This document shows positions 8,492-42,591 of a stretch of 64,000 nt of DNA, one piece after another (position 1 is the stretch's first letter; every line of letters begins with the position of its first letter). The translations under genes and the position numbers were made by a program. Origin of the DNA: Oscillospiraceae bacterium (lineage in GTDB: Bacteria > Bacillota > Clostridia > Oscillospirales > Oscillospiraceae); NCBI GenBank assembly GCA_902790375.1, contig CADARY010000006.1:1-64000 (forward strand), written 5' to 3'. Under the pieces are notes generated by a model. The model did not search any database. It saw only the letters and a list, made by a program, of their open reading frames with translations, and was not told the DNA's origin.

Positions 8492-9568
8492 ATGGCGAAA
8501 GTCAAAAAAGGCGTACGCCTCGAGCATATTTCCAAAATCTATCAGGACCCCAAAACCGGCAAGGAGTTCTACGCCGTCAAGGATACCTCCCTGGTCATTG
8601 AGCCGGGCTCCTTTGTGACGCTGCTGGGCCCCTCCGGCTGCGGCAAGACCACGACCCTGCGCATGATCGCGGGCTTTGAAAGCCCCGACGAGGGCGAGAT
8701 CTACCTCGGCGACGAGCCCATCAATGAGCTCACGCCCAACAAGCGCGACACTGCCATGGTGTTCCAGAGTTACGCCCTGCTCCCGCACTACAATGTGTTT
8801 GACAACGTGGCCTACGGTCTCAAGCTCCGGAAGGTGCCGAAGGAGGAGATCAAGGAGCGCGTCATGAAGATCCTCGACCTCGTGGAGCTCACCGGTATGG
8901 AGGGGCGCATGACCAACCAGCTCTCCGGCGGCCAGCAGCAGCGCGTCGCCCTGGCCCGCGCCCTGGTCATCGAGCCGTCCGTGCTCCTGTTTGACGAGCC
9001 GCTGAGTAACCTCGACGCGAAGCTGCGCGTCACCATGCGCACCGAGATCCGCCGCATCCAGCAGGAGGTCGGCATCACCGCCATCTACGTCACCCATGAC
9101 CAGTCTGAGGCCATGGCCCTGTCCGACAACATCATCATCATGTCCAAGGGCGTCGTTGCCCAGATGGGCACCCCGCAGGAGATCTACTACCACCCGGTCA
9201 ACGAGTTCGTGGCGGACTTCATCGGCGAGGCAAACTTCCTCAAAGGCCCCATGACCGGGCGCGACGACAAGTTCGTCATCCTGAACATCGAGGGCAATCC
9301 CCTGCGCGTGGAAGGGCGCGACGATATGGAGAAGGGGAAGGAGTACACCGTTGTCCTCCGTCCCGAGGCCGCGACCCTGGCCGACGCGGGCGGCCTGCCG
9401 TGCAGGGTGGTGCTGAGCTGCTTCATGGGCTCGTACCAGAACTACCACGTCATGGTCGGCAACACCCTCGTCAAGCTCGAGGAGCATAACCCCAAGAACA
9501 AGCACATCTATCAGGTGGGCGACAGCTGCCACCTGGTCTTCGACCCGGCCTCTGTCCACGTCCTGTAA
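8492..9568 (+). CDS. ABC importer ATP-binding protein (FbpC/PotA-type)
   Basis: A 358-residue ATPase with Walker A GPSGCGKTT (about 49-57), Q-loop FQSYALLPH, signature LSGGQQQR (about 147) and Walker B VLLFDEPLSNLD. The H-loop is in YVTHDQSEA. A C-terminal TOBE-like domain (about 245-355) is present, as in the CUT1/Fbp/Pot group. It energises the permease encoded 4 nt upstream. A strong terminator follows, closing the three-gene operon. Confidence 0.93.
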   Translation: MAKVKKGVRLEHISKIYQDPKTGKEFYAVKDTSLVIEPGSFVTLLGPSGCGKTTTLRMIAGFESPDEGEIYLGDEPINELTPNKRDTAMVFQSYALLPHYNVFDNVAYGLKLRKVPKEEIKERVMKILDLVELTGMEGRMTNQLSGGQQQRVALARALVIEPSVLLFDEPLSNLDAKLRVTMRTEIRRIQQEVGITAIYVTHDQSEAMALSDNIIIMSKGVVAQMGTPQEIYYHPVNEFVADFIGEANFLKGPMTGRDDKFVILNIEGNPLRVEGRDDMEKGKEYTVVLRPEAATLADAGGLPCRVVLSCFMGSYQNYHVMVGNTLVKLEEHNPKNKHIYQVGDSCHLVFDPASVHVL

Positions 9569-20474: not shown

Positions 20475-21209
20475 ATGAAGAAACTGCTTGCACTGATTCT
20501 TTGCGTGATGATGTTCGTCTCCGTCATTCCGACGAGCGCGTTCGCAGATTGGCCCATCGTTGACGATCCCCTCGAGTCCGCCAACACCTATGCTACCGAG
20601 ATCAAGAACATGATCAAGCACACCCGCGAGAACATTGAGACCGCTTACGGCGTTCTCGTCATGGACCAGGTTGTTTACAACTCCGCCAAGGGCATGGACG
20701 ACGCAATCGTCAACCTCGTTGACGGCATTGCCAAGCCCCTGATCTCCAAGGGCAAGATGACCAAGGCTGACTCCGACATCGTCAAGGACGCTATCCGTGG
20801 CCTGATCGACGGCATGGTCGCTGAGAAGATGATGAAGGATGCTTACAAGTACTTCGACGGCGATAAGATCGACCCCATCAAGTACGCTCAGGTCTTCGCC
20901 AACTCCGTTTCCAAGGCTCTGACCGACAAGGACTTCCAGAAGGGCTACGAGGCTGTTGCTACCTACTTCGCTCTGCGTCAGGTTGTCTCCGACATCAACG
21001 ACCAGCTCGAGAAGGACTACGAGAAGTTCCAGAACGGCATTGACGCCAAGTTCGACGCCAAGTTCGCTGACAGATACCCCGAGCTCGCTGAGAACTTCAT
21101 CGACACCTACGGCGAGATGGCAGAAGCTATCCTCGAGGGCGAGATCTTCTTCCCCACCGATCCTTGGGCTGTTGAGGACTATGCCTTTGTTGGCTCTCCC
21201 CTTTCCTGA
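20475..21209 (+). CDS. Secreted helical protein of unknown function; paralog of 10048-11004
   Basis: A 244-residue protein with signal peptide MKKLLALILCVMMFVS (cleavage near AFA-D), then an all-helical acidic domain. It is homologous to the 318-residue protein encoded 10 kb away on the other strand but lacks its calcium-site-like C-terminus. An excellent AGGAGG and near-consensus promoter precede it. Codons are strikingly restricted (GCT, GTT, AAG, TAC, TTC), unlike neighbours, indicating very high expression. No lipobox or cell-wall anchor is seen, so it is probably released or loosely surface-bound. Family not recognised. Confidence 0.82.
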   Translation: MKKLLALILCVMMFVSVIPTSAFADWPIVDDPLESANTYATEIKNMIKHTRENIETAYGVLVMDQVVYNSAKGMDDAIVNLVDGIAKPLISKGKMTKADSDIVKDAIRGLIDGMVAEKMMKDAYKYFDGDKIDPIKYAQVFANSVSKALTDKDFQKGYEAVATYFALRQVVSDINDQLEKDYEKFQNGIDAKFDAKFADRYPELAENFIDTYGEMAEAILEGEIFFPTDPWAVEDYAFVGSPLS

Positions 21210-21464: not shown

Positions 21465-21728
21465 TCAGCGAATGGTGTTCGGATACAGGATGATCCGCTG
21501 TCCTGCGGCAAGGGGAGCGGCCTCGGCAAGACTGTTCCAGGAACGGAGCTGACCGACCGTGACGCCATAGCGCCCGGCGACGGCGGCGAGGGTATCGCCC
21601 TCTGCGGCAGTATAAACAATGTGGTCACCGGCCATGACGAAGCTGCCCCGGGCATTTTGCGCCCATGCTGTGCCGCCTGAAACAGACGCAAGCGCTTCGT
21701 CAGTCAGGGAAGGTCTGTACGCTGACAT
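21465..21728 (-). CDS. Double-glycine-leader peptide fused to a LysM domain
   Basis: An 87-residue protein. Residues 8-19 read LTDEALASVSGG, matching the leader of peptides exported and cleaved after Gly-Gly by C39-peptidase ABC transporters (bacteriocin type). After the presumed cleavage, residues about 42-83 form a LysM domain (GDTLAAVAGRYGVTVGQL, WNSL, LAAGQRIIL), which binds peptidoglycan or chitin-like GlcNAc chains. ATG 21728 follows AGGAGG at good spacing. No C39 transporter is in the window. It could be a secreted wall-binding peptide; alternatively the GG motif is coincidental and the protein is cytosolic. Confidence 0.7.
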   Translation of the reverse strand: MSAYRPSLTDEALASVSGGTAWAQNARGSFVMAGDHIVYTAAEGDTLAAVAGRYGVTVGQLRSWNSLAEAAPLAAGQRIILYPNTIR

Positions 21729-21828
21729 GCTGCACGCCTCCTGTTTTTTTATAGATACAAATGCAGTGTAACATAATTTGTTTTAAAACGGAACCATATT
21801 ATTTCTTAAAAAATGGTAAGAAACAGGG

Positions 21829-22007
21829 GGCTGTGAAAAAAGTCCGGCAAAACCGTAGGGGCGGCTGTCAGCCGCCCGTGCAGTGGGAAAATAAAAAATA
21901 TTGTAAAAATGTTGGGCGGATTCGTAAAAATGCTGCGAATCCGCCCAACATTGACTATAATTTGTTCGCTTTTCTTGCCGGCCAGATACTATCCGCCCCT
22001 GCGATGG
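21829..22007. repeat. Foldback repeat, family B, copy 1 (composite with family A end)
   Basis: It begins GGCTGTGAAAAAAGTCCGG (21829-21847), which recurs inverted at the right end of 42404-42586. A perfect 15-bp stem (TGTTGGGCGGATTCG, 21910-21950) forms the centre. Its right part, AGGGGCGG-rich on the minus strand, matches the left arm of the other copy. It runs directly into a family A end. Between 21729 and 22062 I see no gene, only these repeats. Confidence 0.7.
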
Positions 22008-22062
22008 AAATCAGAGCGCGAATTTTCCGGGAGATGCCGCAGGCGGATTGCGCGGTGTTGGC
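22008..22062. repeat. Family A repeat, right end only
   Basis: About 55 nt matching the right end of 50095-50270 (AAATCAG, AATTTTCC, GAGATGCCG, GGCGGATTG, GCGGTGTTG). Its last base directly abuts the stop codon of the leftward gene at 22063. Confidence 0.75.
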
Positions 22063-22869
22063 TTAATGACAGTTGAAGTAATCCACGGCGGTGCTGTCGG
22101 TGATCACGACGTCGCATTTGCCGGCGTAGAGATATTCAAAGCACTCCGTCGTGCCGCCGGCCAGCCTTGTGATCTGGCCCAGGCGCTTGATCAGGCGCGG
22201 GTCGGTGTCCAGGGCGGCGCGGGCTTCCGGCGTGGAGGGCATGCACATCTTGCGTCCGCTCAGGCGCATCTTGTTCCACACGGGCGACCCGTTGCGCGTG
22301 GCAATTACGATGTCGTTGTGGATATACGGACCATACTGGGTGTAATTGCCGGCGGCGGCCTCCTTCGGGTCCAGGGCGATGCCGCCCCACGCCACGTCGA
22401 TATTACCGGAGGAGAGCTCCACGTACACATTTTCCTTCTCGATGGGCTGCATCTTCAGGGTCCAGCCCAGCTTCTCACACACTGCCAGAGCAAGCTCCAC
22501 ATCCAGGCCCCAGTATTCCCCGTTGGAGAGATAGGAGAAGGGGAAGGCGTTCACATCCAGGCCGATGATCAGATCCTGAGGCTCCGGCGGGACGAGCTTT
22601 TCCAGCGCGTCCGCCTGCTTGGCGTAGTTGAGGGCGGGACTGCCCAGCCACTTGGTTGCAAGCTGGTCCACCCGCCCCTCGGCGGCCAGGACGCTCAGCG
22701 CGGCAGTGACATAGAAATAGAGAGGATCGTTATTGCGAAAGGCAAGGGAATAGTCCTGCTGCACCAGGATCTGCACTGTGTTGATGCCGTAGCGGAAGCG
22801 GCTGCCGCCGCAGGCGCACAGGGAGAAAACCAGGCACAGGGTCAGGAGAAGACAGATCAGGCGTTTCAT
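22063..22869 (-). CDS. Solute-binding lipoprotein with apparently permuted SBP_bac_3 fold
   Basis: A 268-residue lipoprotein (lipobox SLCAC, Cys about 20). Residues about 28-75 (QDYSLAFRNNDPLYFYV, VDQLATKWLG) look like the C-terminal end of amino-acid binding proteins of family 3, which normally closes the protein. Residues about 98-268 then look like the usual N-terminal and middle parts (IGLDVNAFPFSYLSNGEYWGLD, LSSGNIDVAWGG, GGTTECFEYLYAGKCDVVITDS). The protein stops where the chain would normally return to lobe 1. No transporter genes adjoin, so a sensing role is as likely as uptake. Its start overlaps the stop of the upstream beta-lactamase-fold gene by 4 nt. Confidence 0.75.
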   Translation of the reverse strand: MKRLICLLLTLCLVFSLCACGGSRFRYGINTVQILVQQDYSLAFRNNDPLYFYVTAALSVLAAEGRVDQLATKWLGSPALNYAKQADALEKLVPPEPQDLIIGLDVNAFPFSYLSNGEYWGLDVELALAVCEKLGWTLKMQPIEKENVYVELSSGNIDVAWGGIALDPKEAAAGNYTQYGPYIHNDIVIATRNGSPVWNKMRLSGRKMCMPSTPEARAALDTDPRLIKRLGQITRLAGGTTECFEYLYAGKCDVVITDSTAVDYFNCH

Positions 22870-24383
22870 TCGTCTTCCTCATCCTTGTCCCAGAGTTTTC
22901 TGTCAAAGCTCGGCGTCTGCCGCTGCGGCTGCGGAGCGCTTGACCGAGGCGCGCCCGACAGCGGCTTCCCCTGCGGGACGCTCGGCCGCGGCTGCTGGAT
23001 ATTCGTCTGCGGGGTACCAGGCCGGACAGGCTGCTCCGGGCGGCGCACGGTTTGCGCGCCGGGTGTCCCGGGCTGCGGGGTACGCGCCTCGGCAGGCTGC
23101 TGACTCTGGGCGCGCGCGGCGCGCTCCTTTGCCAGCGCCTCCTGCCGCATCTCCTCTTCAAAGCGGCGGCGATAGGACGCATAACGCCTGCGCTCACGCT
23201 CCTTGACGATGATGACCGCGCCGATCCCGCCGATGATGGCCGCCGCCAGAAGGAAGGAGAGCACGATAATGCCCGCCCGCTGCCCGCGCGCTGCGCGGTC
23301 GGCTGTCGGCGTCTGGAGCTGGGTCTCAGGCTGGCCGGGGCGGGTGACGGCCTGCGCAGGCCGCGCGGTGGCGCCGGGCTGCTGGGGCTGCGCCGCCTGC
23401 TCGGCCTGCTGTGCCGCCTGCTCGGCTTCAAGCCGCTCGGCCTCCTTTGCCTCCTGCTCCTGCCGCCAGGCGTCGTAGGTTTTATCCAGACCCAGGGTAT
23501 AGTCCTTGAACAGAACCGCAAGCTCCCCGATGACGGATTCATAGCCGCCCACATTCTTGGTCATGACCGTCAGAATAAAGGGGTGCTCGGTATAGATGAT
23601 CCCGGCGGTGTGGTTCCAGTTGCTGCCCTCCTGATCCAGATAGCTGCCGTATTTCTGGGCGATATCCATGGCGTTCATCTCGGAAGACAGGCGGAAGTAG
23701 TGCGCGGGCTCCGCCTTGAGCAGCTTTTCGGTCACACCCGGGAAGCGGTCCGGATCCTGGCAGAGCGTCTCCAGCACCTGGGTCATATAGCGCGGGGAGA
23801 AGTAGCAGTAGAGCAGATACCGCTCGTCATAGCTGTCAAGGCGCGCATACTGCTTGGCCTGCTCGCGCCAGATCTCGTCCCCGCCCTGCCCGTCGATGAG
23901 GAACTTGCGCACCATGTGGGCATAGTCGTTGTTGGAGTTGACAAGGATATATTCAAAGACCGTGTCCAGATTCAGACCGCCGATCTGCGTGTCCTTGCCG
24001 ACCTTGCCCTCCCGGATGCGCTCGGACAGGAGCATCATCAGCGGCACCTTGTACATGCTGCCGGGATAGAACCACGTGTCGGGGTTATGGAACCATTCCT
24101 CGCCGGTGGCGGTATAGCAGTAGCCGATGCCCACGCGGTCGGCAGGGATATTCTTCTTTTGAAGGAAATCCTGCACCAGCTCCGTGATGGCGGCGTTGTC
24201 CAGAAGACTGTCGCGCGGCCCCGCTTCCGCCTCCGGCGTCTCCGGAGCGGCCGGCAGCTCGGCCTCCTCTCCGGATACGGCCCGGATCGGGATCTGCTCG
24301 GCGGCGAAGGCCGGAGAAGCCGGGGCGAGCATCAGCGCCAGGCACAGCAGCCAGGCGAGAACATGAAGCGTGTTTCGATTCAT
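22866..24383 (-). CDS. Membrane-anchored class A beta-lactamase-fold serine hydrolase
   Basis: A 505-residue protein: signal peptide (about 1-30), acidic linker, then a beta-lactamase-type domain (about 60-290). SxxK is in PGSMYKVPLMM (about 130) and an SxN-like motif in VNSNNDYAH. The KTG triad is replaced by His-Thr-Ala. An Ala/Gln/Glu coiled region and Pro/Gln linker precede a transmembrane helix (IIVLSFLLAAAIIGGIGAVIIV, about 375-396). A basic, Pro/Gln-rich intracellular tail of about 105 residues follows. An extracellular catalytic-like head joined to a cytoplasmic tail suggests sensing or wall-associated action rather than a free beta-lactamase. ATG 24383 is chosen over 24413 for its GGGAGG and immediate signal peptide. 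Translationally coupled to the permuted binding lipoprotein. Confidence 0.78.
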   Translation of the reverse strand: MNRNTLHVLAWLLCLALMLAPASPAFAAEQIPIRAVSGEEAELPAAPETPEAEAGPRDSLLDNAAITELVQDFLQKKNIPADRVGIGYCYTATGEEWFHNPDTWFYPGSMYKVPLMMLLSERIREGKVGKDTQIGGLNLDTVFEYILVNSNNDYAHMVRKFLIDGQGGDEIWREQAKQYARLDSYDERYLLYCYFSPRYMTQVLETLCQDPDRFPGVTEKLLKAEPAHYFRLSSEMNAMDIAQKYGSYLDQEGSNWNHTAGIIYTEHPFILTVMTKNVGGYESVIGELAVLFKDYTLGLDKTYDAWRQEQEAKEAERLEAEQAAQQAEQAAQPQQPGATARPAQAVTRPGQPETQLQTPTADRAARGQRAGIIVLSFLLAAAIIGGIGAVIIVKERERRRYASYRRRFEEEMRQEALAKERAARAQSQQPAEARTPQPGTPGAQTVRRPEQPVRPGTPQTNIQQPRPSVPQGKPLSGAPRSSAPQPQRQTPSFDRKLWDKDEEDE

Positions 24384-24784
24384 TCCGACAGGTTCCCTCC
24401 CAATGCGCACCATGTGCGCAAAATACTACAAATTAAAGTATAGCACAGCTCCCCTCGTTTTGGTACTGGGAAATTGTGAATTTCAAAAAAAGAAAAAGCG
24501 GAAGGCCGTGCTGCGGCGTCGGAAAAAGAAAACTTGCAGCGAAGATTTCATACGAACTTTCAATAGAAACAAGACAATCTTTGCGGCCGGAATCGCGCCA
24601 TGCTTCGTGAAAGCCCTTGACCCTGTATCTCCGTTATGCCCTTCGGGCTTTGCCTCGCCTGACACAATGCTGCCTCACAAAGCTTTTATCGAAACTAAGT
24701 ATCACTTTCCTCTTTCCTTTTTATAGGGAAATGGTATAATCAAATCAGATAATACGCTCTTGACCAGGGAAGGATGAAAACAAA
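24384..24784. other. Gene-free interval with candidate promoter
   Basis: No gene is supported in these 400 nt. They hold an A-rich stretch (24483-24500), a 40-nt segment (about 24610-24650) resembling 44130-44170 and able to pair AAGCCC with GGGCTT, and a TATAAT (24735-24740) 45 nt before the carbonic anhydrase start with only a weak -35 (CTTTCC, 24712-24717). Confidence 0.5.
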
Positions 24785-42403: not shown

Positions 42404-42586
42404 GGCCGTGAAAAACGTCGCTGCATACGGTTTCCGTTGTAGGGGCGGACAGTATCCGCCCGACAAGAAAAACGGAATGAACTACAGATAATATTGGGCG
42501 GATTCGCAGCATTTTTTGCGAATCCGCCCAATACTTATTCATTCACTGCACGGGCCCTAAAGTTTTACCGGACTTTTTTCACAGCC
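42404..42586. mobile_element. MITE-like foldback element, family B, copy 2
   Basis: A non-coding 183-bp element with inverted ends (GGCCGTGAAAAACGTCGC at the left, the complement of GGCTGTGAAAAAAGTCCGG at the right). An AGGGGCGG/CCGCCC dyad near 42443 and a perfect central 15-bp stem (42493-42532) are present. It exactly fills the gap between two convergent genes (42398 and 42592). It is related to 21829-22007 and to a lone end at 61658-61676. No transposase is encoded. Mobility is inferred from dispersal. Confidence 0.65.
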
Positions 42587-42591
42587 CCGAT

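Follow-up and report, generated by a model that had tools for sequence, protein, structure and literature searches.

How does a solute-binding protein (SBP) come to begin with the segment that normally ends it, and is such a chain a working protein or the remains of one? The question is raised by an open reading frame (ORF) of 268 amino acids at 22063..22869 (minus strand) in a stretch of 64,000 nucleotides from an Oscillospiraceae bacterium, likely a gut species (GenBank assembly GCA_902790375.1, contig CADARY010000006.1, positions 1 to 64,000), referred to here as the window. An earlier note on the window had read this ORF as a family-3 solute-binding lipoprotein of permuted domain order, and the ORF, its coordinates, the lipobox and the quoted motifs are as described there. 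We consider it highly probable that the product is a family-3 SBP with a lipobox, a rotated segment order and an ordinary two-lobed fold, which likely captures a small solute, probably of amino-acid type, on the outer side of the membrane and has the origin and importer role proposed below.

Segment order and predicted fold

The chain opens with a signal peptide and the lipobox LCAC (L17-C18-A19-C20; 22810..22869, minus strand like all parts of this gene), whose predicted lipidated residue, Cys20, is invariant in an 88-row alignment. Residues 28-76 (22642..22788) are the lobe-1 C-terminal segment with which canonical proteins end; they hold hinge strand E29-44 and helices 50-63 and 66-75. A linker of 22 amino acids (residues 77-98, 22576..22641), comparable in length to the linkers of other permuted ORFs and of a tandem relative, leads from the old C-terminus to the old N-terminus. 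It is followed by the lobe-1 N-terminal segment through hinge strand E177-192 (residues 99-192, 22294..22575), placed by profile and structure matches, and by lobe 2 (residues 193-268, 22066..22293), after which the stop codon stands at 22063-22065. Helix 259-267 is the final element of the predicted structure and the match to the NCBIfam GlnH profile ends at position 186, in agreement with the earlier claim that the protein stops at the lobe crossover.

The whole protein matches SBP_bac_3 (PF00497) with 77 bits, against a curated cut-off of 26.4, in two stretches. Residues 20-93 alone match positions 82-131 of the 132 in the profile, that is its C-terminal end (17.3 bits, E 0.0041), as had been proposed for residues 28-75, and the usual lobes come after this moved segment, with residues 94-268 alone matching positions 1-120 (64.7 bits). 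When the protein was re-joined in canonical order (94-268 then 23-93), a check suggested in the earlier note, a single stretch covering positions 1-131 of 132 was obtained at 80.8 bits. The GlnH profile (248 positions) behaves in the same way: the N-terminal piece scores 14.3 bits at 201-245, the rest 38.5 bits at 25-186 and the re-joined sequence 56.8 bits at 25-245. Likewise, a profile of the 88-member family aligns to PDB chain 4ohn with profile positions 94-262 on chain residues 14-186 and then 34-81 on chain residues 202-250 (i-Evalue 7.4e-5). Finally, a model of the N-terminal piece, built from the close family only, matches 30 of 49 distinct canonical SBPs, in all 30 cases C-terminal to the main match; in none of the 49 does it match N-terminal to it, and 19 have no match. 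Because the profile, 4ohn and N-terminal-piece matches agree, the rotated order is well beyond chance. By profiles, every canonical segment is present once, none is missing or doubled, and the order alone differs. The score and all profile segments of PF00497 are thus found without the canonical segment order, so that the protein is an SBP_bac_3 member by descent and a variant by topology.

Structure prediction with AlphaFold2 on the 88-sequence alignment yielded a two-lobed periplasmic-binding fold with a pLDDT of 94.3, confident in all five runs; block means are 97-98 for residues 31-80 and 67 for the block 21-30. Two points weigh against this fold. An earlier prediction had given one good model in five (85.5; the rest 48.9-69.5), a doubt that was removed because the deeper alignment gave a confident model. 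Furthermore, the packing of residues 28-75 with the rest, which the earlier note had wished to see in a predicted structure and which the confident model bears out, was read from pLDDT and DSSP strands and not measured on coordinates. Among the matches listed in fold searches against the PDB there was no chain in permuted order; these searches used sequential aligners, whose matches cannot show a permutation itself. We also considered a domain-swapped dimer, in which residues 28-75 would complete lobe 1 of a partner chain. The linker could permit such an exchange, and for a type I ribose-binding protein PMC9815098 describes a tendency of permuted halves to dimerise; however, all five runs give a confident monomer model and the linker has the length of that in an intramolecular tandem, which leaves a swap very unlikely.

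In the topology that we propose, the chain would begin at the second lobe crossover, pass through the lobe-1 C-terminal part, a short linker and the lobe-1 N-terminal part, then cross into lobe 2 and stop where the second crossover would begin. A single continuous hinge strand would remain, and the lipid anchor, predicted from the lipobox, would lie beside the hinge. The amino-acid SBPs GlnH, LAO, ArtJ and 4ohn, which we take to be type II or cluster F SBPs, share with the window protein all lobe segments, the profile score, the predicted fold, the lipobox and, in its relatives, ABC operons. They differ from it in that its order is rotated, with new termini at the second crossover and one hinge strand broken.

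Conservation of the ending

A repeat does abut the stop codon, as had been reported: positions 21827-22010 are about 73% identical to 42431-42588 and contain an inverted repeat (21908-21952). This dispersed repeat is possibly a small mobile or terminator element. The earlier note had raised the possibility that its insertion truncated the gene and had suggested a comparison with orthologs that lack it. Copies matching from residue 1-6 to residue 265-268 are held by 21 of 24 other genomes of the same genus, and the three without a copy are 72-79% complete. In 102 ortholog loci, drawn from collections in which some genomes are present twice, the protein ends at the same place, with NCH, NSH, NAH or, in L032, KNR; none continues past this stop into a second C-terminal segment, a continuation that the note had named as fatal to its proposal. 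In 100 of these loci at least 30 bases of sequence follow the stop (a maximum of 300 was read), and among them the repeat is present at the window's locus only; L085 has a 29-base match to the edge of the repeat. Likewise, in the flanks of 184 permuted ORFs (a redundant set; up to 600 bases on each side in forward frames, shorter at locus ends) matches to the lobe-1 C-terminal segment do not exceed 5.5 bits, and any other SBP matches stay at or below 3.8 bits. Truncation by the repeat was rejected because the 102 loci, orthologs without the repeat included, share the same last residue, no copy of the moved segment stands beside the 184 ORFs, and the re-joined protein fits one Pfam stretch.

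A related alternative is that the protein is a decayed remnant, the non-working remainder of a tandem protein that lost its outer halves. A tandem relative exists (L181, see below), and both missing pieces are outer ends. Yet each canonical segment is present once, the ending is constant across the 102 loci, the lipobox is kept and the model is confident. Moreover, the protein is 54-85% identical to the 21 same-genus copies and 34-49% identical to 70 further sequences from a search with a profile of members from other genera, and 21 columns of the alignment are invariant. Decay is thereby largely refuted, and we regard it as highly improbable. A true circular permutation, the first of the two explanations offered in the earlier note, is supported by the re-joined profile search, the structure prediction and the orthologs without the repeat.

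Some members of the wider set depart from the common pattern. L032 (1501-2295) has the sole C-terminus among the 102 loci that is not N-[CSA]-H (YKNR). L058 (6001-6787) shows an apparent frame change after the N-terminal segment, with the main match only over the later part, and is either a sequencing error or a broken copy. A tail of about 50 amino acids after lobe 2 in L162, L164, L176 and L177 was considered as a second C-terminal segment and rejected as low-complexity PTPTP sequence.

Probable genetic route and recurrence

Homolog searches returned 547 sequences with the window protein as query and 722 with a profile of members from other genera. In the tree described below the window protein falls into clade B, a single group (support 100/99) of 35 rows that represent 13 genera and are all permuted in the same way; the rotated order is the conserved state of the whole clade. 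The window protein is probably a member of the most widespread permuted lineage. The few names given to these proteins at the source are those of ordinary substrate-binding proteins, so that the rotated order goes unflagged.

Rotated orders are also found outside clade B. We denote the window's order P1 and the order lobe 2, lobe-1 C, linker, lobe-1 N, which starts in lobe 2 and ends just past hinge strand 1, P2. P1 occurs at 15 distinct loci outside clade B (L189-L193, L205, L207, L236-L239, L256, L264, L267 and L272), and P2 at L220, L221, L226-L235, L255 and L273, and also at L246, L247 and L254; a third cut, further inside lobe 2, is seen at L222-L225. In P2 proteins, residues ~30-170 match the C-terminal part of canonical SBPs, right after the lobe-1 N match, at 44-61% identity. 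The assignment of lobe 2 to the P2 start rests on this identity match; profile hits there were weak, scoring 3-9 bits and in some cases falling at an incorrect position. Of the 15 P1 loci, 14 (all except L236) have a permease homolog downstream of the SBP gene and on its strand, as have 18/18 P2 or third-cut loci, 32/33 in total. The wider stretches of L246, L247 and L252-L254 contained no further SBP, so the permuted protein there is probably the receptor. A search at the level of the order fetched 30 loci, of which 21 fell outside the window's family and comprised 6 permuted (four P1, two P2) and 15 canonical proteins. Without this search, and after removal of identical cores, 142 distinct permuted sequences remained (126 P1; 16 P2 or third-cut), 85 of them from the window's genus or close loci.

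For a careful tree of 118 rows, near copies were thinned, most copies from the window's genus were left out beforehand, and L001, L005, L037, L039, L121, L122 and L140 were dropped as far outliers or false P2; L121 and L122 had been tried as P2 and are multi-domain proteins of 523-530 amino acids. On this tree P1 requires 8 changes, at least 6 of them by well supported branches, and P2 together with the third cut requires 4; a single origin of P1 appears in 0% of 200 bootstrap trees. Forcing all P1 rows (47) into one clade lowered the log-likelihood by 482.9 (p-AU 2.6e-77), in a test whose group was defined after the first tree had been viewed and whose tree contains long branches, and a single origin was rejected. 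Since reversals to the canonical order also count as changes, a figure of about ten rotations is a reading and not a count. On balance, we think it likely that circular permutation is recurrent and recent in the family-3 SBPs of this order, with about ten rotations at three or more cut points, including all three crossover-defined orders, by way of tandem-fused intermediates, the youngest case lying at one locus of two congeneric species, and that the permuted proteins are now receptor genes of importer operons.

Assembly artefacts at repeated SBP genes in metagenomes could mimic such orders. Most genomes used here are metagenome bins, and some P2-type forms of 377-407 amino acids come each from a single contig and have a chimeric look. 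Against this, 80 loci from many different projects agree on the window's order, one P2 cluster has 1203 member sequences, another P2 protein is present on 217 contigs (the longest of 163,701 bases), one P2 gene comes from a 100% complete genome in 2 contigs, and the cuts fall at the same structural place across many genera. We therefore regard artefact as exceedingly improbable. The 377-407-residue relatives (P0121, P0125, P0174, P0179 and P0202) contain one and a half SBP domains, have long near-identical stretches in common with shorter forms, and may be intermediates or assembly chimeras.

The transition can be followed most closely in two genomes of one genus, G211 with the canonical and G261 with the permuted order. 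On either side of the SBP gene the two importer loci align collinearly, at 86% and 79% DNA identity. Within the gene, the stretch for lobe-1 N plus lobe 2 (81%) and that for lobe-1 C (79%) stand in swapped order, with protein identities of 147/168 and 52/64 (81-88%). Two additional stretches, ~330 and ~155 bases long, lie between the SBP gene of G261 and its permease region; G145, a second permuted genome of that genus, shows the same exchange without them, over a short upstream flank (72%). In addition, one ORF at L181 (3410-5086, minus strand), before a permease and an ATPase gene, contains two canonical domains of the same subfamily that are each other's nearest relatives in the tree. Twenty amino acids separate these two domains, compared with linkers of 16-29 amino acids (median 19) in 186 permuted ORFs (model coordinates; the set includes repeats and two rows that were dropped later). 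All three states, canonical, tandem and permuted, occur among the relatives. We propose that the SBP gene would have undergone in-frame tandem duplication and fusion, and that loss of the first domain's N-terminal part and of the last domain's C-terminal segment would then have produced the permuted order. This direction and these steps are probable in that they would account for the collinear exchange, the tandem ORF of L181 and the matching linkers. The earlier note had treated permutation and the loss of a tandem protein's outer halves as competing explanations; the permutation stands, and outer-half loss, to judge from the linker lengths, is its likely route and not an alternative to it.

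Natural circular permutations are usually ancient and visible only through remote-fold comparison. Here canonical, tandem and permuted forms coexist in related genomes, once at one locus of a congeneric pair, so that DNA comparison can trace how a topology change comes about genetically. In GlnPQ-type importers, tandem domains are fused to the permease. Such proteins (6h30) have two family-3 domains per chain and thus represent the kind of intermediate needed for permutation by duplication; both of their domains are canonical, whereas the window protein is one rotated domain and a free lipoprotein. A natural permutation of an SBP is known from TpMglB-2 (Tp0684), and it is the recurrence and the same-locus pair that are surprising. 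PMC4990184 describes TpMglB-2 as a natural permutation of a type I glucose-binding lipoprotein, proposed as 'Type Ic / Cluster Bc', which still binds glucose and changes conformation. Both cases are thus natural circular permutations of a tethered SBP, with ligand binding retained in TpMglB-2. TpMglB-2 has a type I sugar fold, with three N-lobe strands moved, a fourth crossover added and 13% identity in the moved part (PMC4990184), whereas in the present proteins the fold is that of family 3, a crossover is lost, some lineages are still highly identical to canonical relatives, and there were several separate events. Pfam and NCBIfam matches of the window protein up to E 10 are family-3 amino-acid SBPs, with no sugar SBP (MglB type) among them. 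The permuted halves of the T. maritima ribose-binding protein, also a periplasmic-binding-protein permutation, are described in PMC9815098 as laboratory constructs of single lobes. No natural family-3 permutation was found in the open-access literature searched. The present proteins bear on whether both hinge strands of an SBP have to be continuous and on whether a lipid anchor at the hinge alters receptor-transporter coupling; as natural permutants they are also possible biosensor scaffolds.

Gene context and likely role

What the window protein does is best approached through its neighbours. In other genera, genes for an SBP, a permease and an ATPase accompany the clade B member in 17 of 19 wide loci, and in 15 of the 17 the clade B gene follows the ATPase gene on the same strand. 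Scans of two of these operons identified the permease as BPD_transp_1, with a polar-amino-acid permease domain over the cut-off, and the ATPase as ABC_tran. Because clade B in other genera so often follows an SBP-permease-ATPase set directly, its members there would probably act as a second receptor of an amino-acid-type importer, and the window protein itself would capture a solute, probably on behalf of an ABC importer. In the window's own genome no permease gene adjoins the gene, which is coupled instead to one for a beta-lactamase fold; a canonical SBP-permease-ATPase set of the same type is present on another contig (L219).

Several observations tell against the importer role. For 13 of the 19 wide loci, another SBP match on the contig was already known when they were selected; in the 6 wide loci without such preselection (L182-L187) the importer set is found in 4/6. 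No permease homolog lies in the window, and its sole ATPase homolog (8513-9226, 34% identity) is 13 kb away. In addition, clade B has drifted at ligand positions, so the ligand may differ or be absent. The lobe-2 Asp, which in solved structures binds the amino group of the ligand, is kept in 23/35 clade B rows and in the window protein (D258), compared with 83/83 other SBP rows, so that clade B keeps the binding machinery in part and has drifted in part. An Arg found in 23/53 canonical rows is not among the five commonest letters at its place in clade B, which cover 30/35 rows.

Directly upstream on the minus strand, and overlapping the SBP gene by 4 nt, lies the gene of a beta-lactamase-fold serine hydrolase-like protein of 515 amino acids (22866..24413; PF13354, 45.3 bits). 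This arrangement suggests an alternative that accepts the permutation as real, namely that in the window's genus the protein has ceased to serve transport and is a receptor or regulatory partner of the hydrolase, sensing, for example, cell-wall peptides. A PF13354 homolog is upstream on the same strand in 72/102 ortholog loci, with a stop-to-start gap of -4 to +47 nt in 68/72; the missing permease gene, the drift at ligand positions and a low-scoring match between MltF and the re-joined protein (28.9 bits) point the same way. However, a search of 32 wide loci, 30 of them outside the window's genome, gave no homolog of the window's PF13354 protein at E 1e-4. The pairing is thus no general feature of clade B, and adjacency of genes alone is no proof of joint action. 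A cell-wall partnership is thus the main rival, which we consider rather unlikely, and a second receptor for an importer would be the simplest reading of the gene order.

The PF13354 protein has a proline- and glutamine-rich C-terminal tail. On the other side of the SBP gene, a small LysM protein of 87 amino acids (21465-21728, minus strand; PF01476, 41.7 bits) is encoded between it and an ORF of 244 amino acids (20475-21209) with a signal-peptide-like start. Elsewhere in the window's own genome (G000), contig C14 (L128) carries four ORFs of 982-1158 amino acids with SBP domains within 15 kb, which are likely multi-domain receptors.
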